Source: Magnetococcales bacterium
GTDB taxonomy: Bacteria; Pseudomonadota; Magnetococcia; Magnetococcales; DC0425bin3
Direction: 5' to 3'
Length of the DNA: 45,144 bases
NCBI GenBank assembly: GCA_015231175.1
Contig: JADGBZ010000020.1
Location: forward strand, 1-45,144
Under the pieces are notes generated by a model. That model did no database searches. It was not told where the DNA came from and saw only the letters and a list, made by a program, of their open reading frames with translations. Both the position numbers and the translations under genes were made by a program. Each line of letters starts with the position of its first letter. Position 1 is the stretch's first letter. Positions 7,044 through 41,044 of this stretch are shown in pieces.

Positions 7044-8927
7044 TCAATGCACAGTGGGTGCCATGGACCTTTTTTGATCAAGACGCGCCTTTTCTTTTTT
7101 GTACCCACTCAGCTGCATAAGTTCCTGATCGGTCCATACGCCCGTTGCTCGATTCTTTTCTTCCAGGCGTTGAATATCGCGGTCGATACGCCGGCGCAGG
7201 CAGGTATCCAGGCACCCCTCCAACTCTTTTTCAAGATCATGGGGCAAGGTCTCCTCCGCAGCCAGAACTGCTTGTGCCAGGGTGCGCAGTTCCAAAGTTG
7301 GAAGCGTTTCCAGGGCCAGGGGTGAGTCGTCATTCCACTCCAGTTCAAGGTGGATACACGCCTGCAACAGGGCATTCATATGCGGATTTTCCAATTCCAG
7401 TCGCTCCAGGTCATCCTGCAACTTTTGCATAAAAAATGGGCGACGGAGCAAAATGGCCAGCAGGGCCTGCTCAAAATTGCGCCCCGACATGGCCTGACGC
7501 GGAAAAAAGGCTGGGTGCCGACCCTCCTGCGGGGAGTGGCGGAAACGAGAGGGTTGCTCCCGGGAGAGCGTTCCGGGTGGGCGAACATGGGGAGCACCCA
7601 AAACCTGGGCTCCCGACAAACCGTAGCGTTGACCGACCTTGTCGGCAAACAGATCTCGCAAAAGCGGGTCGGCAACTTTAAGCAGTCGCTGGCGCACTTG
7701 GTGTACCAGGGCAGCCATCCCTTCCGGGGTGTCGATCTGGAGTCCCTGGCCGAGAGTTTCCAGCAAAAATTCGAGCAGGGGTTTGGCTTTGCGCAAACGT
7801 CCCTGAAATCCCTCGCTCCCTTCCCGGCGCACCACCTGATCGGGATCTTCTCCTTTGGGCAGAAAGATGAAATCGACGCGACGCGACGCTTCCAACCCAT
7901 CCATGACCTGTTCCAGGGCGCGCCAAGCCGCTTTCTTCCCGGCAACGTCGCCATCGAAGCAGAAGGTCAGATGGTGGCAACGCCGCCACAACAGACGCAG
8001 ATGATCCGGCGTCAGGGCGGTGCCCAAGGTTGCAACGGTGTTGCCGAAGCCATATTCGGCCAGGGTGATCAAATCCATGTACCCTTCGACCACAAGCACC
8101 CGTTTTTGCCGCTGGATCGCCTCCTGAGCCAGGTTCAGCCCATAGAGGACGTGGCCTTTTTGATAAAGTTCGGTTTCGGGGGTATTGATATATTTAGGTT
8201 CACCGGGTTCGAGCAGTCGACCGCCAAAACCCACCAGGCGCTGGCGGTGATCGTGGATGGGAAAGGTGATCCGGTTGCGAAACCGGTCGTAGCGATGTGG
8301 ATGAGTTCCCCGGGGGGGGGCTCCTTTGTTACGTTCAGGGGCGTGGGTCACACACAGGCCGATTTTTTCCAGGTTCGCCCCGGCAGCGGTCCCACCACCG
8401 AAATGATCCAGGAGGTTGCTCCACCCCGGAGGGGCGAATCCCAGACCGAATTTTTGGATGGTCACCTCTTTGACCCCCCGTCCGGCCAGATAGTTTCGCC
8501 CCACTTCCCCTGCCGGCGCCGCGAGTTGTGCTTGAAAGTAGCGATTCACAGCGGCGAGAAGCTCATGCAGTTGGTGCTGATGGGCTCGGTGCGCAGCGGC
8601 ATGCTGTTCCTGCCGGGCGGACAATGGATCCGGGTCCGGCAGTGCCAATCCCGCTTCGGCGGCGAGCATCTCCACAACGTCCTGGAAAGATGTTCCTTGG
8701 AGTTGCATAAGGAATTCAATGGCATCCCCTTTGACATCGCAGCCAAAGCACTTGAAAAAACCACGATCCCCCCGCACGTTGAAGGAGGGGGTCTTTTCCT
8801 GGTGAAAAGGACACAGTCCCACCCAACTGTTGCCTTTTTTTTTCAGGTGGACGTGCCGACCGATCAAGTCCACCAAGTCGATCCGCTCTTTGAGCCGGTC
8901 AAGAAAGCTGTCCGGGTAGCGCGCCAT
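7044..8927 (-). CDS. dnaG: DNA primase DnaG
   Basis: A 627-residue primase that makes RNA primers for replication. The N-terminal zinc-binding domain has Cys39, His42, Cys60 and Cys63 (CPFH...CFGC). The catalytic core shows YLAGRGV and NRITFPIHD, then the TOPRIM motifs VLVVEGYMD and [14 protein letters not shown]. The C-terminal third should bind the DnaB helicase. Length is slightly above the E. coli enzyme. The gene starts 22 bases after yqeY and ends 52 bases before rpoD, matching the macromolecular-synthesis operon order, although rpsU, often present at the head, is not seen. Confidence 0.97.
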
Positions 8928-8949
8928 CCTGGGGCAGCCCCCTACTGGT

Positions 8950-9399
8950 TCAGGAACCGGAAAGGGCGGTTTTGACCAGGGCGGAGATTTGACCCAGGTC
9001 AGCCCGTCCGGCCACCCGATCTTTCAAAATTTTCATGACACGTCCCATATCCTTGGGGCTGTTGGCTCCACTTGCCGAGATGACCTGTTTGACGAGCGCC
9101 GCCAGATCATCCGCTGCCATCATTTGGGGCAGATAGGACTCCAGGAGGCTGGCTTCGCGTTCTTCGCGTTCGGCCTGCTCTTCCCGACCTGCCTGGCGGA
9201 AAGCCGCGACAGACTCCCGGCGCTGCTTGATCAAGGTGCGTATGACGCCATACATGGCCGCTTCGCCGGTATCCGTCTGGCCAGACTTGTCGAGATTGAG
9301 GAGAGCGGCCCGCAACATGCGGATGGCAGAGAGGCGTTCCGCATCCTGTGCCTTCATGGCCTCTTTCAAATCCTGGGTGATACGCTGGCGAAGATCCAT
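8950..9399 (-). CDS. GatB/YqeY domain protein
   Basis: A 149-residue protein of the YqeY family, related to the C-terminal tRNA-binding domain of GatB amidotransferase subunits. Typical features are the start MDLRQRITQDLKEAMKAQD, the RMLRAAL helix, the EREASLLESYLPQ segment and the KDMGRVMKILKDRVAGRAD ending. The ATG is chosen because it has an AAGAGG site 5 bases upstream and gives the family start; 24 further upstream codons are unsupported. The family role is unclear but it is commonly found directly ahead of dnaG, as here. Confidence 0.92.
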   Translation of the reverse strand: MDLRQRITQDLKEAMKAQDAERLSAIRMLRAALLNLDKSGQTDTGEAAMYGVIRTLIKQRRESVAAFRQAGREEQAEREEREASLLESYLPQMMAADDLAALVKQVISASGANSPKDMGRVMKILKDRVAGRADLGQISALVKTALSGS

Positions 9400-13917: not shown

Positions 13918-16197
13918 TCACGGTGGGGAAGGTTTTGCCGGAGGTCTGGGCGTCACGGATTTTATTCCCACGTGATAGTTGTGGCATTCAAGGCAGGCAT
14001 CGCCTGCCTTGTTTGGCCGGTGACACTTGGAACAGGCACTCTTCTCCAATTGGGCAAAGCCGCTCAGGACGACGGGGAGTTGCCCTGCCGGACTGCCTTG
14101 GGCAAGGGTTTTGGAGAAGGGGTGGCAATCCTGGCACCGGGGTACCAGGCTCTGATGTGCCCGGTGAGAAAATTTGCGGAACCCTTTGGCATGGGGGTGG
14201 CTGACGCGCCCCTGCCAGACGGGAAAGGCCTGTTCGGAATCCGTGCTGGAACCAAAGTGACACTTGCCGCATTGTCCTGTGGCCTTTTCGGAGACAAACA
14301 TTTGAAAAAGGCGCTGCGCCGCCGCAGAAGCGTTTCGCCGGAAAAAGAGCGTGTCCAACCAGGCGCGCAGGAAACCATCTTCGTGACCGGTCGGCAGATA
14401 GTAGAGTGAAAAACCCTCCCGATACCATCCGCCCCCCTCGATCCAGGCATCACCCGCGAGAGGCCGCAGGGCAGGCGCCAAACCTGTCACCGGAGTATCA
14501 CGCCGGGTTCCTGGCTTCTTCCCGGAAATGGCGTTCTCCTTGTCATCACCCAGGAGCCCCCCTTTGTCATCACCCAGGAACAGCCCCCCCTTGTCACCCG
14601 AAAGTTCTCCCTGACCACCACCAGTCAGCCCCTTCTGCTGGCCAGAGGCATCTTTGGTTCCAACTTCGGGTTTGCTCCCACCCGCAGCGACCGGCGCGGG
14701 AAGCAAAACGGAATCCGCAACTGGAATGGGAACGGGTTTTCCCTGGCGATGCAGTGCGATCTCCTCCAACAGGTGGGGAAACCACTCCTTTTGGACCGAG
14801 CGGATCAACTCTGCCGACATTTGTCCGCTCAATTGCGCCAAAGAGTGATAATCAGGCCGTTCCCCCAGCAAATGCTGCAAACGATTGGCCAGCGCCGGGC
14901 GACCATGGGCCAACAAGTCAAAAACCAGCTCCTTGATGCTCCAAACCAGGGTGGAGATGGCGGTGATCTGGGCCTCCGTTGCCGAGGCAAGATTCATGGT
15001 GTCCACGTTGCTCAAAAGGGAAAAAGCTGCCATGAACTCGGGCGAACCGGAAAAAAAGCTGGGCATGAAGGGGGTCAATTCGCCATCGCTCGCCGTGGGC
15101 CACTCACCGATGGCCACCCCACGGCGCCGCAACGCATCCACATCCAAAGGCGGCAGGGAAAGGGCCTTCAACCCCTTTGGACCTGATTGAAAAACTTCAC
15201 GAATCTGGTCGATGTGACAGCTACCGCATGCTGGTTGAAAACGGATCGAGGAGACCATGTTGCCGACGTTGTTTTCAGGGTGGCACGTCTGGCAACGCTG
15301 AGGTGCCTTGTCGGCAAGTTTGCCTAAAAAATGTTTTTGAAAATGGCTCCGATGATCAAATTTGATGGAGGTCTGTTCCCGGTGGGGGTAGCCCACGAAT
15401 GGTGGGTGATCCTGGTCGAAACGAGCCGTCGCTTTGCGGTGGCAGGAGTTGCAACGATCCTGCCCCCACCAACTCTCCTGCAAGGATTGACCTTGATGCT
15501 CCTGATGACAAAGCCCACACTCCAGAGGCTTCTCATGGCCCAGATCCGAACCCAGCAAAGGCGCCGCCATGTGCAGGGTAACAGGCAAAACCGGGGGAGA
15601 AGGCCACTCGGAAACCCTGGGCTCAAGTTTTTTTAAAAACTGTGGATCCAGGCTGTGGGGCGATTGGGCATACTCCCCCAGGGGGTGGCATTTCAGGCAA
15701 CGCAAATTGTCGGGTTGAGGGTCTGATCGTCTCACAGCCAACCTGAGCCAGCTCCGCGGACCACGCTCGGCAGCCGCGTGACAGACAGAGCAATTTTCAA
15801 TGGAACTGTGAAACGGATTCAAATGCCCCGGAGAGATAAACTCCAGCACCTTGGGGCCGTAGGTCACGAAGAGGACAAGACCCAACGCAGTCAGCAAAGA
15901 CCAACGCACCAACACCCGGCGCCACCCATATAAATGGCGCAGTGGTTGGCAGGTGGGTAACGGACGACCACAATGGCCATCGGGCGATGGTCCCTCCTGA
16001 CACCCCCCCCCGGCAAAGGGGGGCCGGGCACAATACCACCTGTCACCCCGGCGAACGGGTTGACATTCGCTTTGGCCACCACAATGACCCCGTCGGTCCG
16101 GTCCAGAACGGCAGGCCTTTCCTTCCCGCGCACGACCGCAAACCCAGGCGTGACCTGGACGTTCGTAGCATTCCGGGCTCGATTGGGGGTCGTCCAT
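13918..16197 (-). CDS. Membrane-anchored decaheme cytochrome c
   Basis: A 759-residue protein with ten CxxCH heme motifs: residues 136, 167, 227, 249, 302 and 324 in the first half, and 643, 688, 722 and 735 at the end. A single transmembrane segment (about 94-116) anchors it, leaving the heme parts periplasmic. The first 90 residues, predicted cytoplasmic, hold two copies of a Cys motif, Cx2GPx3GHCGx4CQP[VL]R (29-49 and 66-87). Between the heme groups lies a 300-residue heme-free domain and a Gly/Asp-rich linker (528-556) built from a 24-base repeat. The start lies 4 bases after the cytochrome b stop. The pair probably moves electrons between the quinone pool and periplasmic partners; direction and substrate are unknown. 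Confidence 0.9.
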   Translation of the reverse strand: MDDPQSSPECYERPGHAWVCGRAREGKACRSGPDRRGHCGGQSECQPVRRGDRWYCARPPFAGGGCQEGPSPDGHCGRPLPTCQPLRHLYGWRRVLVRWSLLTALGLVLFVTYGPKVLEFISPGHLNPFHSSIENCSVCHAAAERGPRSWLRLAVRRSDPQPDNLRCLKCHPLGEYAQSPHSLDPQFLKKLEPRVSEWPSPPVLPVTLHMAAPLLGSDLGHEKPLECGLCHQEHQGQSLQESWWGQDRCNSCHRKATARFDQDHPPFVGYPHREQTSIKFDHRSHFQKHFLGKLADKAPQRCQTCHPENNVGNMVSSIRFQPACGSCHIDQIREVFQSGPKGLKALSLPPLDVDALRRRGVAIGEWPTASDGELTPFMPSFFSGSPEFMAAFSLLSNVDTMNLASATEAQITAISTLVWSIKELVFDLLAHGRPALANRLQHLLGERPDYHSLAQLSGQMSAELIRSVQKEWFPHLLEEIALHRQGKPVPIPVADSVLLPAPVAAGGSKPEVGTKDASGQQKGLTGGGQGELSGDKGGLFLGDDKGGLLGDDKENAISGKKPGTRRDTPVTGLAPALRPLAGDAWIEGGGWYREGFSLYYLPTGHEDGFLRAWLDTLFFRRNASAAAQRLFQMFVSEKATGQCGKCHFGSSTDSEQAFPVWQGRVSHPHAKGFRKFSHRAHQSLVPRCQDCHPFSKTLAQGSPAGQLPVVLSGFAQLEKSACSKCHRPNKAGDACLECHNYHVGIKSVTPRPPAKPSPP
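14541..14600. repeat. 24-bp tandem repeat inside the decaheme cytochrome gene
   Basis: The 15-base core TGTCATCACCCAGGA occurs at 14541 and 14565, each followed by a C run, with a third partial copy after it. It encodes the GGLFLGDDK/GGLLGDDK linker. The number of units may vary between strains through slippage. Confidence 0.7.
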
Positions 16198-16201
16198 GCG
16201 G

Positions 16202-17041
16202 TCAGCCCTGAAATCCCAGGACATTCAAAACGTGCCAGGCCACCAGGATCCACATGCCAAAGGTCAAGGGGAGATGAACAAGCAGCCAGATTTTCATGGC
16301 CCCCTGCAACGTGCAGTGGTAGTCCAGATCATCCTTGCGGAGGACCAACGCCTCGATACGTCCCAGCACCTCCATCTCCCGGGCATCAAGGTACCGTTCC
16401 AGGCTCTTGATCTCATTCAGGAGAACAAATCGGGAACGGTTCCAATCCAAGAGATGTTCGTGGGGGTTGCACACCCGGCTGAAAAAGTCCCGCAGGCGAA
16501 ATTCGTAAAATTCCGCCAGAGTGGTTGACCCGGTGGTATGGGCCAGGGAAACGACAGCCTGTTCCACCTCGCGCCTGGCCTCTTCCCGAAAGATGGAAAT
16601 TCGTTCCTGGATGACCTCGACGCCTCGACGGGTCAAACGTTTCGGCACATTCCTGTACAGGAGGAAGCCCACAACGCCACTGAGCGCCACGAACCAGAAA
16701 CAGAGCGCCAGGATGGTATCGAAAGCGCCACTGGGAATCCAATTGCCGACATGGAAGAAGAAGAGAGGCATGGTCACAGAACCCACCAGAATGTGCAGGC
16801 CAGTCCAACGATGCATGGCCCCAATCGGCAGCATGCTCAATCTTTTGCGAAGGGTGTGCAGAGTCAGCAGGAGAAGTGCGCCCAGCAGGATCCAGCCCGT
16901 GACATGGCTCGTGTTGCGCAGGCTGGCGCCAAGGAACCGCACCCCATAACCCATCAGGAGCAAAAACAAGATGGCAGGAAGCAACGTTCCGAACAGAAAA
17001 CGGAACAGGGGATGCCTGCGTTGCCATAGATTGCCCTTCAT
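16202..17041 (-). CDS. Membrane b-type cytochrome partner
   Basis: A 279-residue membrane protein starting at ATG with a GAGGTG site. It has about five hydrophobic helices: residues 14-34, 43-62, 78-96, 108-127 and a last one near 252-275. Histidines placed in or near helices could ligate two b hemes: His in TLHTL, MHRW, LHIL, FFFHVGNW, LLVHLPL and VAWHVLNV. A cytoplasmic coiled-coil-like stretch (about 140-240) separates the last helix. It resembles the di-heme cytochrome b subunits that pass electrons from quinol to multiheme cytochromes c. The decaheme gene starts 4 bases downstream, supporting a complex. Confidence 0.75.
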   Translation of the reverse strand: MKGNLWQRRHPLFRFLFGTLLPAILFLLLMGYGVRFLGASLRNTSHVTGWILLGALLLLTLHTLRKRLSMLPIGAMHRWTGLHILVGSVTMPLFFFHVGNWIPSGAFDTILALCFWFVALSGVVGFLLYRNVPKRLTRRGVEVIQERISIFREEARREVEQAVVSLAHTTGSTTLAEFYEFRLRDFFSRVCNPHEHLLDWNRSRFVLLNEIKSLERYLDAREMEVLGRIEALVLRKDDLDYHCTLQGAMKIWLLVHLPLTFGMWILVAWHVLNVLGFQG

Positions 17042-17383: not shown

Positions 17384-17959
17384 ATGCAATGGTCAAACGT
17401 CATGCGTTCAGTGCACTCCTGGATGGGAATAATCGTTTTCCCGTTTGTGTTCCTGGCCGGGGTAACGGGTTTCTACCTCAGCAATGAAGACCTGTTTCCG
17501 ACATCCACAATGTTCGAACATATTGAGTCCGGAGAAGTAATATGGCCAGAAAAAAAAGATCCACTCTCCCTTGAAAAAGCGATCACTCTGGCCAACTCTC
17601 AATGGAAGAATGGCATAACCGGAAAGGTAACCAAAAAAAAGATTAACGATAGAAATCAATACATCCTCTGGGAGAAGGGAGGCAATCAACGGATCGTGAT
17701 CGATATTGACAATCACTCGTATTATGTAAAAACGAGCGATTACATTAAAAGACAATACACGCCTGACGGCATTCATCTGCATACGAAATTCTATATTTAT
17801 AACATCATTGAACACATACACAAAGGCAGGCTCATGCACTGGGGAGCATTCAAGGTGGCTGTGGATGTCACGAGTATTGCGCTGGTGCTTTTTGCCATAT
17901 CGGGGGTATATTTGTGGATTCGTCCACGTCTGAAGCGTTACTTCAGGAACAGGAGCTGA
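17384..17959 (+). CDS. PepSY-associated membrane protein
   Basis: A 191-residue protein with AAGGA 7 bases before its ATG. It has an N-terminal membrane helix (about 12-32, after the R-x2-HSWMG motif typical of PepSY_TM proteins) and a C-terminal helix (about 160-182, ending SGVYLWIRPRLKR). Between them is a periplasmic PepSY-like domain of 125 residues with the LEKAITLA helix and ILWEKGGNQRIVIDID strands. The HxxxH pairs (HLHTKF, IEHIHKGRLMHWG) are also typical and may bind heme or metal. Related proteins occur with iron uptake and ferric reductases. Its base composition is clearly more AT-rich than its neighbours, which may indicate transfer. Confidence 0.8.
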   Translation: MQWSNVMRSVHSWMGIIVFPFVFLAGVTGFYLSNEDLFPTSTMFEHIESGEVIWPEKKDPLSLEKAITLANSQWKNGITGKVTKKKINDRNQYILWEKGGNQRIVIDIDNHSYYVKTSDYIKRQYTPDGIHLHTKFYIYNIIEHIHKGRLMHWGAFKVAVDVTSIALVLFAISGVYLWIRPRLKRYFRNRS

Positions 17960-23844: not shown

Positions 23845-23931
23845 CCATGTGCGTACCTGGCCAGGCAAGAGGGCCAGGCTTGAGAACCTTCCGGAAAGGG
23901 CTTACAGTGTCGACGGGAGATTTTGTCCGAT

Positions 23932-25257
23932 ATGATGACATCCGATGCACTGACCGCTTTTTTGCAGGATCAACAAACCACCTTGCAAGGACTGGCAGGC
24001 ACCCACCCCTTCCGTGTGGCCGGTTGGTTGCTGGTGGTCGGAATTGCCGTGCAAGTGGTGTTGTCCATTGCAGGGCAGATGCGTCGGTTGTCTCTCCAGG
24101 AGAAGCGGCAACGTGTCGAGATCAAACTCCTGGAGACACAGCTGGAAAAAGCAACGTCTCTGTACCACCTGGAGGTGGAGAGACAGGCCCGTTCCTGGAG
24201 CGGGGTGCGCAAGTTTCGCATCGACCGCAAGGTGCCCGAAACCCCCGGAGTCTGGTCTCTGTATCTGGTCCCACATGATGGCAAGCCTCTGCCGCCCTTC
24301 CTTCCTGGTCAGTATTTGACTTTTGTGGTGCGGGTTCCTGGTCGTGAGAAACCTGTCACCCGATGTTACTCTCTTTCCAGCCATCCCCAGCATTTGAACT
24401 CCTATCGCATGACGGTCAAGCAGGCCTTGGCCCCGCCGGGTACGCCGGGGGTTCCACCTGGAGAGGTTTCAACCTATCTTTGTACCCAGGCACAGGAAGG
24501 GGACATTTTGGATGTCAAACCCATCACGGGCCATTTCGTCCTGGATCCGGGTAAACAAAGGCCGGTGGTTCTGATTGGCGGGGGCATTGGGGTAACGCCG
24601 CAATTGAGCAAATTGATGTCCTTGTGCAGCGCCTTTGATGAGCGGGATGTCTGGTTTTTCCACGGGGTGCGCAACAGCCGGGACCATTTATTGCGGGGAG
24701 AGATTGAGGCGATCGCGGCCACATGTGACCACGTTCATGTTCGATTTTGCTACAGCCAGCCTTTGCCAAAGGATCAGCTGGGCAAGGATTTTCACCATGT
24801 TGGCCGCATCGACATGGCCCTGCTCAAGGCATCATTGCCCTCCAGCAATTACGAATTTCACATCTGCGGCACCCCCGGGATGATGCAAAATCTGGTGACC
24901 GGCTTGGCGCAATGGGGCGTACCGGATGATCATGTTCACTATGAAGCTTTTGGTCCCTCCAGCGTCAGCCGCACACCTCCAACCCCGTTGGCCGGAGCCG
25001 CGTCATTCACCGTCCTTTTTTCCCGCAGTGGCAGGCAGGTGACATGGCACCCGGAGGACGGATCCTTGTTGGATCTGGCGGAAAAAAACAACATCCCCCT
25101 GGATGGTGGCTGCCGAGCCGGAAATTGTGGCACCTGTGCGGTGGCCCTGAAATCGGGCCAAGTCAGCTACGTCCACGACCCGGGACAAACTCCCGATCGA
25201 GGCACCTGCCTGGCCTGTATCGCCGTACCCAAGGAAGATCTGGTCATCGATGCCTGA
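23932..25257 (+). CDS. Membrane-anchored flavin oxidoreductase with [2Fe-2S] domain
   Basis: A 441-residue protein. One N-terminal membrane helix (about 27-49) is followed by a coiled coil (about 52-85). The FAD-binding domain begins near residue 95 and has RCYSLSS; the NAD-binding domain has LIGGGIGVTPQLSKL and FHICGTPGMM. The C-terminal plant-type ferredoxin domain has LDGGCRAGNCGTC and a last Cys in TCLAC, binding one [2Fe-2S] cluster. This is the layout of Hcr-like NADH oxidoreductases and of reductase components of oxygenases, but the anchor plus coiled coil is unusual. Electron acceptor unknown. ATG 23932 is preferred over a TTG nine bases upstream because its distance to the GGGAG site is more acceptable. 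Confidence 0.88.
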   Translation: MMTSDALTAFLQDQQTTLQGLAGTHPFRVAGWLLVVGIAVQVVLSIAGQMRRLSLQEKRQRVEIKLLETQLEKATSLYHLEVERQARSWSGVRKFRIDRKVPETPGVWSLYLVPHDGKPLPPFLPGQYLTFVVRVPGREKPVTRCYSLSSHPQHLNSYRMTVKQALAPPGTPGVPPGEVSTYLCTQAQEGDILDVKPITGHFVLDPGKQRPVVLIGGGIGVTPQLSKLMSLCSAFDERDVWFFHGVRNSRDHLLRGEIEAIAATCDHVHVRFCYSQPLPKDQLGKDFHHVGRIDMALLKASLPSSNYEFHICGTPGMMQNLVTGLAQWGVPDDHVHYEAFGPSSVSRTPPTPLAGAASFTVLFSRSGRQVTWHPEDGSLLDLAEKNNIPLDGGCRAGNCGTCAVALKSGQVSYVHDPGQTPDRGTCLACIAVPKEDLVIDA

Positions 25258-25458: not shown

Positions 25459-25533
25459 TGGAGCCGCCTGTCGGAATTGAACCGACGACCTGCTCATTAC
25501 GAGTGAGCTGCTCTACCCCTGAGCTAAGGCGGC
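25459..25533 (-). tRNA. tRNA-Thr (anticodon CGT)
   Basis: A complete 75-base cloverleaf with encoded CCA: acceptor GCCGCCT/AGGCGGC, D arm GCTC/GAGC, anticodon arm GCTCA-CTCGTAA-TGAGC and T arm GTCGG/CCGAC. It reads ACG codons. A strong promoter lies directly upstream. Confidence 0.97.
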
Positions 25534-28551: not shown

Positions 28552-28838
28552 CCAACGGGACCGATGCCACGGGAGCGGGCATAATCTTCAAGGGAAATCC
28601 CCGGACGGCCTTGGCGTTCCCATATCTCCAGCCTCTCCCGAATCAAACGGGAGTCTTCGGCATCCTCAACTGTTTGCTGTGCCGTATCCGCTGTTTGCTG
28701 TGCCGTATCCGCTTCGGTCAGCAGGTGGTGGAATACCATCAGGAGGTAATCTTCCAAGGTTTGCCCGCTCTTGTTGGCCATGGCCTTCAACCGAAGTTCC
28801 ATTTCGTCCGGCAACGTGACAGAAAACATGGTCTTCAT
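28548..28838 (-). CDS. RHH-type antitoxin
   Basis: A 96-residue protein whose first 45 residues form a ribbon-helix-helix DNA-binding domain (TMFSVTLPDEMELRLKAMANKSGQTLEDYLLMVFHHLL). Such proteins bind their own promoter and neutralise a RelE/ParE toxin through the C-terminal part. Here the linker contains a perfect duplication, ADTAQQT-ADTAQQT. The start overlaps the integrase stop and its stop overlaps the broken toxin start, both as ATGA, so the three genes form one transcript led by the integrase. Confidence 0.85.
   Translation of the reverse strand: MKTMFSVTLPDEMELRLKAMANKSGQTLEDYLLMVFHHLLTEADTAQQTADTAQQTVEDAEDSRLIRERLEIWERQGRPGISLEDYARSRGIGPVG
28670..28711. repeat. Perfect 2 x 21-bp tandem repeat in the antitoxin gene
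   Basis: Unit CTGTTTGCTGTGCCGTATCCG occurs at 28670-28690 and 28691-28711 in its two copies, adding seven residues in frame. The identity suggests a recent duplication. Confidence 0.9.
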
Positions 28839-30088
28839 CCTCCCTGGTTGGCACGAATCGAGATCACTTCGGCTTTTGGGGTGCCATTCAGTGCCGCAGC
28901 GATTTGACCAGAAATTCGGTCGGCGGCCACCTTGAGTGGATCGGCACTCAGATGGGCATAGCGTTGGGTTGTGCTGGCCTGGGTATGGCCCAGGAGTGCC
29001 CCCACGATGGGCAACCCCATTCCGGATACGACGCCAATGGAAGCAAACCCGTGGCGGGTGTCATGAATGCGAACGTCACTGAGTCCAGCCCTTTCCCGAA
29101 TTTTGCGCCAGATGCGGGGAAGTCCCACCAGAGGTTGGCCATGGATGGCACCAGGGAAGCAGAACGGTTGTCCCTCGATGCGTGGTAATCCAGCCAACAA
29201 TTCCAATGCCGCCGCCCCTACATGAACCACCTTGGCCCCCGTCTTGGAGTCTGGCAGACGCAGACAACCCCTTTCAAAATCGACATGCGACCATTGCAAA
29301 GTCAAAACCTCCCCCCGCCGCATGCCGGTCAACAACAGCAAACGTAACGCGGCAATGGCGGATGGATTCACCCCCTCTCGTTCAGCTTCCCTCAGTGCAT
29401 CTCCCAGGCGGGTGAGTTCCTCACCGGTCAAAAATCTTTCCCTGCGTTCTCCAGGGAATTTTTTGATTCCATGGGTCGGATTGTCTGCCCGGAATCCCCT
29501 CTCTGTCGCAAAGACAAAAATGGCACCCAATAAACCCATGCACCGGGTTGCAGTTCCCTTGCCTCCGGTCACGATGGCCCGGCCACGCAGACCTGTCTTG
29601 ATGTCGGCAGCTGTTTTGCCTTCGGCTACGGCACTCATGAAGCGTTGCGTGTCGGTGCGGGTAACCTGATCCACGCGCTTGCGTCCCAACAAGGGTTTGA
29701 TATGGCGTTCGATCCGCCCCCGGTCGATGGACAATGTAGACGCCTTTTTGGTTGCTGTTCCTTCTGCCATGTACAGGTCACACAATTCCGCCACGGATGG
29801 CATGGACTTGATTTGCGCCTTCACTTCAGCAGGGTCTTCCCCTTTTGCCACCATTCCCAGAAGTCGGACGGCTTCCGTTCTTGCCTGGTCGGGAGTCCAA
29901 GGGGAACCATGAACCCCGATCACCAACCGCCGTTTGTTCCCATTGATGCGATATTGGACCAGATAGACCTTGCGCCCGGAGGGAGTGACCTTGAGACCGA
30001 ATCCGGTCAGGTCTTCATCAAAAAGGAACAGGTCTTTGTCACCGGGTTGGGAAGCATCGACAGTGCGTTTATTCAATCTGGTGGCCAT
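28835..30088 (-). CDS. Tyrosine integrase of the island
   Basis: A 417-residue phage-type integrase. The N-terminal arm-binding domain (about 1-90, with LTGFGLKVTPSGRKVYLVQYR) belongs to the DUF4102 type. A core-binding domain follows (100-195). The catalytic domain has Arg257 in TGMRRGE, Lys282, His342 and Arg345 in IHDTRHG, His368 in LLGHTQ and the nucleophile Tyr377 in TQRYAHL; all are present. It should integrate and excise the island at tRNA-Val. Its end overlaps the RHH antitoxin start. Confidence 0.95.
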   Translation of the reverse strand: MATRLNKRTVDASQPGDKDLFLFDEDLTGFGLKVTPSGRKVYLVQYRINGNKRRLVIGVHGSPWTPDQARTEAVRLLGMVAKGEDPAEVKAQIKSMPSVAELCDLYMAEGTATKKASTLSIDRGRIERHIKPLLGRKRVDQVTRTDTQRFMSAVAEGKTAADIKTGLRGRAIVTGGKGTATRCMGLLGAIFVFATERGFRADNPTHGIKKFPGERRERFLTGEELTRLGDALREAEREGVNPSAIAALRLLLLTGMRRGEVLTLQWSHVDFERGCLRLPDSKTGAKVVHVGAAALELLAGLPRIEGQPFCFPGAIHGQPLVGLPRIWRKIRERAGLSDVRIHDTRHGFASIGVVSGMGLPIVGALLGHTQASTTQRYAHLSADPLKVAADRISGQIAAALNGTPKAEVISIRANQGG

Positions 30089-38244: not shown

Positions 38245-39957
38245 TTAACGCCACCCCATCCAGTGCCGCAAATTGCGGGTGTCCCACATGTTGGCCCGCA
38301 GCAGGGCATGGCGTGGACAGGCGCGTTGACAAGCCGGCCCACCCCACTGTTCCAGGCAAAGGTCACATTTGGTGGCCTTGAGGATGGGAAGTCCTGTCTC
38401 CCGGTTGTGCTGGAAACGGCCACGCGCGTCCCGGGTTTCCACCATCAGAATGGTTCCGTAAGGGCAACTGTTGGCGCATGTACCACAACCGATACAGGTC
38501 CGGTCGTTGATGAGAACCTCGCCTCCCCGTTCATGGCGATGAATGGCACCGGTCGGACAACCAATCATGCAGACCGGATCCAGGCAATGCATGCAAGCGG
38601 TGGCCACCATGACAGCGTCGTGGCGGCGTCCCTGGCGCACGAAACGGGGGTTGTTGTCGTGGGCGCGGGAACAGGCCCGGACACACTCGTCACACCGCAC
38701 ACAACGATCCAGGTTGATCAACATGGCCGCCGTTGCGTTGATGTAGTGATACTCCACCAAAAACTCTATCAGACCAACATCTTCCCTGTCCAAGCCCTCG
38801 AATACCGTGCCGCTGCGGGTGGTCAGCGCCGATGGGGCAAACTCGGGTGTAAGGTGTGGCAGAACATGGCTTTGCAAAATCTCATAAGGGATGCGTAGCG
38901 TCTGGACGTAACCAATGGCGCGCAACGAAAAAACGCTCGGCGCCGGTTGCCCGGTGCGCCAACGTTGCATCGCCTCGGCCAGACCGTACATACGGTTGCG
39001 GCCCAAAAAACCAACCGTCCGATGACCATGATTGAATCTTTGACTGATACGGGCAAATCCGGATTGAATCAGGATCAGGCCGTCGAACACTTCCCCCTCT
39101 GCGATGATCAGGGGTTCCTGGGCCAGGCGTTCACTGGGCGACTCCCCTTGCGGACGCCAAAACGGGTTGTTGGTGTCGGTTTCACCGTAGACCTCGGAGA
39201 GGGCAGCCTGTTCAAGGTCGGTCAACAAAGCCTGATCCAGGTGGCGACAGACTGGCGTTTCGCGGAGATGTGCCTTCAGGGAACGCTCACGATACAACTG
39301 GTTCATGTGCTCACGAAAACGGGCATCATGACGGCGAAAGTCCCGCAATCCTTGCCAACGGATCTCCAAAATCTCCACGTCCGTGGCTGCAACCACTGAG
39401 ACCGAGCGGGGGAATCGACCAAGGGCGCCAATCTCTCCGAACAAATCCCCATCTTTTAAAATGACGGTGGCATGTTTTTGCAGCAACTGATCCGTGTCGG
39501 CCAGATTGACCCGGATGACACCATGTCCATCGCCCGTGACGGCATGTGCGCCATCTCCTTCCCCCTGGAAAAGGTGGTGGGTGGCCTCCGGCATACGGGA
39601 GTCGTTCCAAATCTGTCGCAAGACCTGAAAGAGAGACTTGCGCTTGGGTGCGGCCCGCCCCAGACGTTCAGACGGCAACCCCGGCGGCAAAATAACCGCC
39701 ACATCTCCCTGGACCACAAGAAATGCCGAACTGCCGTAATCACCAGCGCGCACCACCAAATCGCCACGCCGATACTGGACCAACCGGGTCTCGTTGCGCA
39801 CCAATCTGGGCAATGAAACCAGAGTGGGGAAGCTTTCGGCATCCATATTACGAAACAGCGGCAAAGAGAGGATACGAGCAACCTGCTCCGGGGTCATTTC
39901 TGGATCCAGAGGGTTGTCCCACCGGTCCATTTGGTGAATATGGACTGTCCCGGCCAC
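38245..39957 (-). CDS. Cyclic-nucleotide-binding / four-cluster ferredoxin fusion protein
   Basis: A 570-residue protein without signal or membrane segment. The first 200 residues form a cNMP-binding domain interrupted by an insert: LPLFRNMDAESF, YRRGDLVVRAGDYGSSAFLVVQGDVAV, then KDGDLFGEIGALGRFPRSVSVVA. A second, less complete one follows (IIAEGEVFDGLILIQSGFARI). The C-terminal 160 residues carry four Cys groups for [4Fe-4S] clusters: CVRCDECVRAC, CMHCLDPVCMIGCP, CIGCGTCANSCP and CDLCLEQWGGPACQRACP. It probably is an electron-transfer subunit gated by a ligand. The start is GTG, one base overlapping the cytochrome stop; an ATG nine codons later is an alternative. Confidence 0.9.
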   Translation of the reverse strand: MAGTVHIHQMDRWDNPLDPEMTPEQVARILSLPLFRNMDAESFPTLVSLPRLVRNETRLVQYRRGDLVVRAGDYGSSAFLVVQGDVAVILPPGLPSERLGRAAPKRKSLFQVLRQIWNDSRMPEATHHLFQGEGDGAHAVTGDGHGVIRVNLADTDQLLQKHATVILKDGDLFGEIGALGRFPRSVSVVAATDVEILEIRWQGLRDFRRHDARFREHMNQLYRERSLKAHLRETPVCRHLDQALLTDLEQAALSEVYGETDTNNPFWRPQGESPSERLAQEPLIIAEGEVFDGLILIQSGFARISQRFNHGHRTVGFLGRNRMYGLAEAMQRWRTGQPAPSVFSLRAIGYVQTLRIPYEILQSHVLPHLTPEFAPSALTTRSGTVFEGLDREDVGLIEFLVEYHYINATAAMLINLDRCVRCDECVRACSRAHDNNPRFVRQGRRHDAVMVATACMHCLDPVCMIGCPTGAIHRHERGGEVLINDRTCIGCGTCANSCPYGTILMVETRDARGRFQHNRETGLPILKATKCDLCLEQWGGPACQRACPRHALLRANMWDTRNLRHWMGWR

Positions 39958-40973
39958 TATTTTTCCGGATACCAGGGGATGACCGCATCCACGGCGGCCA
40001 GTTGATTCCCATCGGCGCGGGCGACAAACTGTTTCCCCTGCGCAGCGATGGCATCGGCAATGGGATCGAGTTCACTGCTGTTGTTCAACTTCAATTTAAC
40101 CTTGCCCGCTTCGGCGACGATGGCTTTCACTTCGGGAATATCGGCCTTGTCGCTGACCTGCTTCATGCGTTGGGCAGCCTGCTTGGCCTGTTTGGCCATT
40201 TTTTGCACAAACAGCCCTTCCTGAGTTGCCCGCCCGATGGCCCGAATCGTATACTCCAGTTCCAACGCCAACCCCAGGACATACATGACACGACGCCGGG
40301 CCGGAGGCGCATAGCGGTTCTCCTTGCCCTGCATCAGATTGTGACGGATTGGCTTTCCTTCCTCACCCACCTTGCCCTGGGTCCAGGAGACCAGTTCGAT
40401 CAGGCTGCCAGGCACATGGCCGCCCGTATTGACAAGTTTTTCCTCAAACCCCAGATGGCAGTCGTAGCAGGCGCGCACCAGGGGGTAGAGATCAACAGGT
40501 CGCACCAACCCCGCAGCGGCGGATTTGGCCAGGCGCTGCTGTTTGTGCTCTGGTGTCTCCTGGTCACGTTTGACATCCTTGCCCCCAAAATCGCCATGAA
40601 TATCGATCCAATTTTTGGCCGGACGGTGACAGGCCTCGCAAGAAACGCCAGCGGTGGCTTGCGGATGACCGTTGACCATTTGCATCGTGTAGTGGCAACC
40701 CTGACAAGGTTCAGCCCGGCGCATGCTCCCTTTGAGACCCAGATTGGTCAAAATCTCGCCCACTTTCTTTTCCTGCTCCAGGGTACGAAACGACGCAGCG
40801 TGTTTGGTCTCGACCCAGACAGCGGATTCATCCTTGTGGCACTCCTTGCCACAGCTATCGGGGCCTTTGATCAAAGCCGGGTCGGGCGACCCTGGTCCGG
40901 CGAAGCTGGCTCCTGTCAACAAAAGGCACCCGCAAGCAAACAGCCAAGCCAGAAATTTTGCTGATTTTTTCAT
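39957..40973 (-). CDS. Exported tetraheme cytochrome c (c554-like)
   Basis: A 338-residue periplasmic protein with a signal peptide (MKKSAKFLAW, hydrophobic to about residue 25). It has four heme motifs: CGKECH (41-46, with three residues between the cysteines), CQGCH (90), CEACH (112) and CYDCH (169). The C-terminal 150 residues are heme-free and helical (GRATQEGLFVQKMAKQAKQAAQRMK in outline). The first part resembles cytochrome c554-family electron carriers. The gene precedes the cNMP/ferredoxin gene with a 1-base overlap, pointing to a redox pair across the membrane, although no membrane subunit is encoded here. Confidence 0.88.
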   Translation of the reverse strand: MKKSAKFLAWLFACGCLLLTGASFAGPGSPDPALIKGPDSCGKECHKDESAVWVETKHAASFRTLEQEKKVGEILTNLGLKGSMRRAEPCQGCHYTMQMVNGHPQATAGVSCEACHRPAKNWIDIHGDFGGKDVKRDQETPEHKQQRLAKSAAAGLVRPVDLYPLVRACYDCHLGFEEKLVNTGGHVPGSLIELVSWTQGKVGEEGKPIRHNLMQGKENRYAPPARRRVMYVLGLALELEYTIRAIGRATQEGLFVQKMAKQAKQAAQRMKQVSDKADIPEVKAIVAEAGKVKLKLNNSSELDPIADAIAAQGKQFVARADGNQLAAVDAVIPWYPEK

Positions 40974-41014
40974 GGTTACGGTCCATCTCGTTGGTGAAGG
41001 ATGCAGGGCGTCCT

Positions 41015-41044
41015 TTGATAACAAACTTTAGAACAGTTTGTAAA
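41015..41044 (-). promoter_or_regulatory. Promoter with operator-like palindrome, tetraheme cytochrome operon
   Basis: Minus strand: TTTACA (41044-41039), an 18-base spacer and TATCAA (41020-41015). The perfect inverted repeat ACAAACT-7-AGTTTGT (41021-41041) fills the spacer and touches the -35 box, where a bound regulator would block polymerase or alter its access. It lies 40 bases ahead of the cytochrome start. Confidence 0.55.

Follow-up and report, generated by a model that had tools for sequence, protein, structure and literature searches.

The window, that is, the whole 45,144-nucleotide stretch of Magnetococcales DNA that was analysed (contig JADGBZ010000020.1), encodes a conserved set of five genes: an NAD(P)H/FAD/2Fe-2S reductase (F4), a cytochrome c554-like protein (F3), a cNMP/[4Fe-4S] protein (F2), a diheme cytochrome b (F1) and a decaheme cytochrome (F0), which is the last gene of the set in related genomes (Table 1). 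The five genes lie in three pieces, F1-F0 at 13918-17041, F2 and F3 at 38245-41024 and F4 at 23923-25257, and are contiguous in the same-genus genome G053. The three-way split is either a rearrangement or a misassembly of the contig. F4 is inverted to the + strand and adjoins a tRNA-Thr gene (25459-25533), and a tyrosine-recombinase-like open reading frame (ORF) is found at 28835-30088. Directly upstream of F1, on the opposite strand, lies a gene for a small membrane protein that is PepSY-like by eye (17384-17959). The open-access literature yielded no published description of the gene set; subscription journals lay outside that scope, so the absence carries little weight.

Table 1. Features of the five-gene set in the window
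Feature	Coordinates	Strand	Evidence
F0 inner-membrane decaheme cytochrome, 759 aa	13918..16197	-	10 CxxCH; Cytochrome_C7 / class III cytochrome Pfam matches; homologues
F0 cytoplasmic tail (predicted), residues 1-90	15928..16197	-	8 invariant Cys in 28 sequences; N-in topology; no Pfam/NCBIfam/PDB family
F0 Cys unit 1: W18...C20, C29, C39, C45...P47	16057..16146	-	alignments
F0 Cys unit 2: W54...C56, C66, C76, C83...R87	15937..16038	-	alignments; unit-to-unit score > 2000/2000 shuffles
F0 signal-anchor transmembrane helix, ~residues 95-113	15859..15915	-	hydropathy, charge asymmetry; AlphaFold helix 89-121
F0 periplasmic decaheme region	13921..15858	-	10 CxxCH
F1 membrane diheme cytochrome b, 279 aa, ~5 TM helices; invariant H83/H97, H256/H270	16202..17041	-	alignment; weak Ni_hydr_CYTB (b561) Pfam matches in 6/22
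F2, two cNMP-binding domains + four [4Fe-4S] motifs (HybA/DmsB/NrfC-type)	38245..39957	-	family searches
F3 cytochrome c554-like periplasmic multiheme protein	39957..41024	-	Cyt554 NCBIfam match; homologue matches PF13435
F4 membrane-anchored FAD/NAD(P)H reductase, C-terminal 2Fe-2S domain	23923..25257	+	by-eye counterpart of L017 F4

In F1, four histidines that are invariant in 22 sequences are placed on two helices as two H-x13-H pairs, as expected of a diheme cytochrome b. Matches to the Pfam b561 model (PF01292) at E<=0.1 are found for six of the 22 members (best 4e-4), the window member not being among them. F2 carries four cluster motifs, lacks an export signal and is predicted to be the cytoplasmic carrier. 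F3 is a tetraheme cytochrome, and homologues of the F4 at locus L017 match NAD_binding_1 and Fer2 or NqrF-like models. The usual gene order at loci whose F0 bears the N-terminal tail described below is F2-F1-F0. Next to the operon, many genomes also encode F10, a pentaheme c554-type protein, paired with F5, a barrel-like protein (L065 1820-5380, L024 353-3966, L127 14505-18394 and others). F5 reads like an outer-membrane barrel, given its signal-like start and C-terminal aromatic residue. F10 and F5 are a possible outer-membrane end of the conduit. In the gammaproteobacterium G543, a second ten-heme ORF of 1280 residues directly adjoins the operon (L062 11622-15464).

The F0 ORF extends in frame to 16224 (13918-16224, - strand), but the likely start is M10 of this ORF, the ATG at 16197. 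Four nucleotides separate this ATG from the stop codon of the upstream gene F1, and the identical spacing in G053 led us to reject a wrong start codon. The protein that begins there has an N-terminal tail, a single hydrophobic helix and a heme-bearing region. AlphaFold predicts a helix at residues 89-121 with pLDDT 90-96 over most of its length, and each of 28 homologous sequences has one hydrophobic helix between tail and hemes, the tail being otherwise free of hydrophobic stretches. The mean net charge around the helix is +4.4 on the tail side and -0.4 on the heme side, with the tail side the more positive in 27 of the 28 sequences. All 10 CxxCH motifs lie C-terminal to the helix, and heme c is attached in the periplasm. 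A cleaved signal peptide was rejected, as no consistent signal peptidase site follows the helix. Thus, the single transmembrane segment, the positive charge on the tail side and the necessarily periplasmic hemes place the tail, by prediction, in the cytoplasm. Both the cytoplasmic placement and the view that the tail cysteines are not heme motifs had been proposed in an earlier sequence-only reading of this DNA, and both are supported. A tail on the periplasmic side, held by four disulfides, would suit the cysteine spacing of the window's F0 (8-9-5-10-9-9-6, with no CxxC) and its W/G/P-rich style, which recall disulfide-rich secreted modules; the best PDB sequence match of the tail, which is not significant, is likewise to ephrin-A2. 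Such an arrangement is nevertheless very improbable given the lone membrane helix, the charge asymmetry and hemes that must lie in the periplasm.

The tail of about 90 residues consists of two tandem four-cysteine units of the form W-x-C-x8-C-x2-GP-x3-G-x-C-x5/6-C-x-P. The first unit reads W-x-C-x8-C-x9-C-x5-C-x-P and the second W-x-C-x9-C-x9-C-x6-C-x-P, so that each is longer than the motif of the sequence-only reading, whose two copies are nonetheless located correctly at residues 29-49 and 66-87. That motif had four residues before CQP in both copies, which is right for the first copy; the second has five. Counted from the 16197 start, the tail cysteines stand at 10, 20, 29, 39, 45, 56, 66, 76 and 83. 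C10, C20 and C56 had been listed as extra cysteines. This description fits C10, which is private to the F0 of the window, but C20 opens the cysteine series of the first unit and C56 that of the second. None of 2000 shuffles reached the alignment score of one half of the tail to the other, and a chance motif was rejected.

Whole genomes were searched with protein sequences and profiles for homologues of the tail. A contig scan with the single sequence from the window returned no confirmed relatives and an alignment-based scan returned 11, while tblastn found no homologues on plasmids. Weak matches in G024, G099, G187, G482 and G545 were rejected, those inspected matching the helix and first heme only or unrelated genes. 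The resulting 28 sequences come from Magnetococcales, from Alpha- and Gammaproteobacteria, from one genome that resembles Zetaproteobacteria and from two MAGs whose labels name other phyla. In the alignment of these 28, all eight unit cysteines (20, 29, 39, 45, 56, 66, 76 and 83) are invariant, as are G21, P33, G37, P47, R58, G63, G64, G69, G74 and P85. The sequence-only reading had named cysteine conservation across homologues as one of its tests, which the eight cysteines pass and C10 does not. Between the window F0 and its two nearest relatives, identity is 75% and 65% in the tail and 72% and 54% in the ectodomain, and synonymous sites are near saturation, which indicates that strong purifying selection acts on the tail. 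In G049 (L027 about 8900-8960, G049:C5), a frame-shifting internal deletion fuses the two cysteine units of the tail, which marks either a pseudogene or an assembly error.

The distribution of the tail follows that of F2. Among approximately 298 genomes, the tail, F2 and the decaheme core are confined to the same 12 genomes. Once this sample is extended by sets of gamma- and alphaproteobacterial genomes and by three named contigs, both tail and F2 are present in 28 genomes, neither is present in three genomes that have the decaheme core, and no genome is discordant. The three (G368, G791 and G775) possess F3, F1 and a decaheme core with a short N-terminus in place of the tail; genome-wide searches did not find F2 in them and gave only weak ferredoxin-type matches in G775. 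In a maximum-likelihood tree of the core, the tail-less forms are nested, with moderate support, inside the tail-bearing forms and require two changes. A single change suffices in 6% of bootstrap trees and is all that the starred branches force, so loss of the tail may represent one or two independent events. Two of the three tail-less loci encode a different, differently arranged FAD/2Fe-2S reductase. The tail-less G368 locus is followed by a gene (L065 14234-17119) that resembles the alpha subunit gene of an NAD-type formate dehydrogenase, a hint that electrons may come from another source in that genome. By gene content, F2 is apparently an obligate companion of the tail in the genomes examined. 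Since the tail is lost together with F2, it is a candidate docking site for F2 and possibly also a relay.

No family in sequence searches of Pfam, NCBIfam and PDB covers the tail, in line with the original remark that no described domain has this motif. AlphaFold models of the tail, built with the transmembrane helix and alone, are of low confidence (pLDDT ~60-78), and Foldseek with these models gave no match at E<=0.001; VIA-align likewise returned nothing useful. CxxC is present in most zinc and Fe-S sites. The window tail contains neither a CxxC, as in rubredoxin or zinc ribbon knuckles, nor the ferredoxin motif CxxCxxCxxxC(P), and none of the 28 tails matches Fer4. The simplest reading of the eight invariant cysteines is a pair of putative tetracysteine metal sites. 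These could be purely structural, for instance two zinc-stabilised knuckles that help to assemble and stabilise F0, F1 and F2 outside electron transfer. The strict conservation of Cys, Gly, Pro and Trp suits a small metal-stabilised fold, F1 already supplies a transmembrane path and F2 the cytoplasmic clusters, and the co-occurrence of tail and F2 fits equally. However, the CxxC pattern of zinc knuckles is absent and matches to zinc-finger families in Pfam are isolated, weak and confined to single members, none rising above noise, so a purely structural role is judged rather unlikely. Eight thiols that follow no recognised cluster motif could also act as a redox or metal sensor, in which disulfides or loss of metal in an oxidising cytoplasm would gate the complex, perhaps together with F2, whose cyclic-nucleotide-type domains make regulation plausible. 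A sensor is improbable, since eight invariant cysteines out of eight exceed what a thiol switch usually needs.

Known systems share parts of this arrangement. Like the decaheme proteins MtrA and DmsE, F0 has ten periplasmic hemes, but those proteins are soluble or embedded in a porin whereas F0 is anchored in the membrane and carries a tail predicted to be cytoplasmic; the NCBIfam search gave no match of F0 to their model (TIGR03508) at E<=1. The Hmc, Qrc and DsrMKJOP complexes of sulfate reducers also combine a cytoplasmic- or membrane-facing four-cluster ferredoxin, a membrane b-type or anchor subunit and a periplasmic multiheme cytochrome c, and F2 scores weakly against models of HmcB, QrcC and DsrO. 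In contrast to these complexes, the F0-F4 set has no NrfD/HmcC-type anchor, F2 has two cNMP domains and F0 has the cysteine tail. HmcA is a 16-heme protein, and F0 scores 10.5 bits against the HmcA equivalog model, far below its cut-off of 400 bits. In Geobacter, CbcL combines b and c hemes. Together with ImcH, it is an inner-membrane cytochrome that delivers electrons from menaquinol to periplasmic multiheme carriers (PMC12307469). The set described here resembles these in its inner-membrane delivery to multiheme carriers but differs in encoding an NAD(P)H reductase and a [4Fe-4S] protein and in the cytoplasmic cysteine domain of F0.

The case for an electron conduit is based on sequence, conservation, predicted topology, the gene set and the co-occurrence of tail and F2. 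NAD(P)H would donate its electrons to the flavin/2Fe-2S reductase F4, which would hand them to F2, the four-[4Fe-4S] cNMP-binding carrier of the cytoplasm. The two b hemes of F1 would then carry them over the membrane to the ten periplasmic hemes of F0 and on to F3, beyond which, in many species, the pentaheme protein and outer-membrane barrel would follow. Electrons probably flow outward, with NAD(P)H as their source. The two four-cysteine units would hold F2 against F1 and F0. The idea that the tail itself gives direct electron input across the membrane is better modified, because the lone helix of F0 cannot conduct electrons and the two b hemes of F1, encoded in the same operon, can; the better reading is docking or relay with F1 and with F2, which accompanies the tail in every case. 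On balance, we lean towards a tail that docks F2 at the cytoplasmic side of an inner-membrane electron conduit and probably also relays electrons. The physical docking of tail and F2, the direction of flow and the metal content are what we infer from this evidence. More tentatively, and with considerable doubt, the tail could be a new cytoplasmic electron-transfer domain on a periplasmic wire, with two metal or Fe-S sites that dispense with CxxC, and could form with F1 and F2 an undescribed conduit from NAD(P)H to the periplasm that bypasses the quinone pool.

Judged from its genes, the set is a predicted variant of a transmembrane electron conduit, new in that it brings NAD(P)H and Fe-S input of its own and an undescribed cytoplasmic cysteine domain. 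The tail thereby represents a cysteine domain so far without annotation, for which F2 is the clear candidate partner. In most of the routes known to lead from metabolism to periplasmic multiheme wires, electrons pass via quinol. If the proposed route is true, the gene set would let electrons leave or enter directly in magnetotactic cocci and other proteobacteria, possibly under cNMP control.
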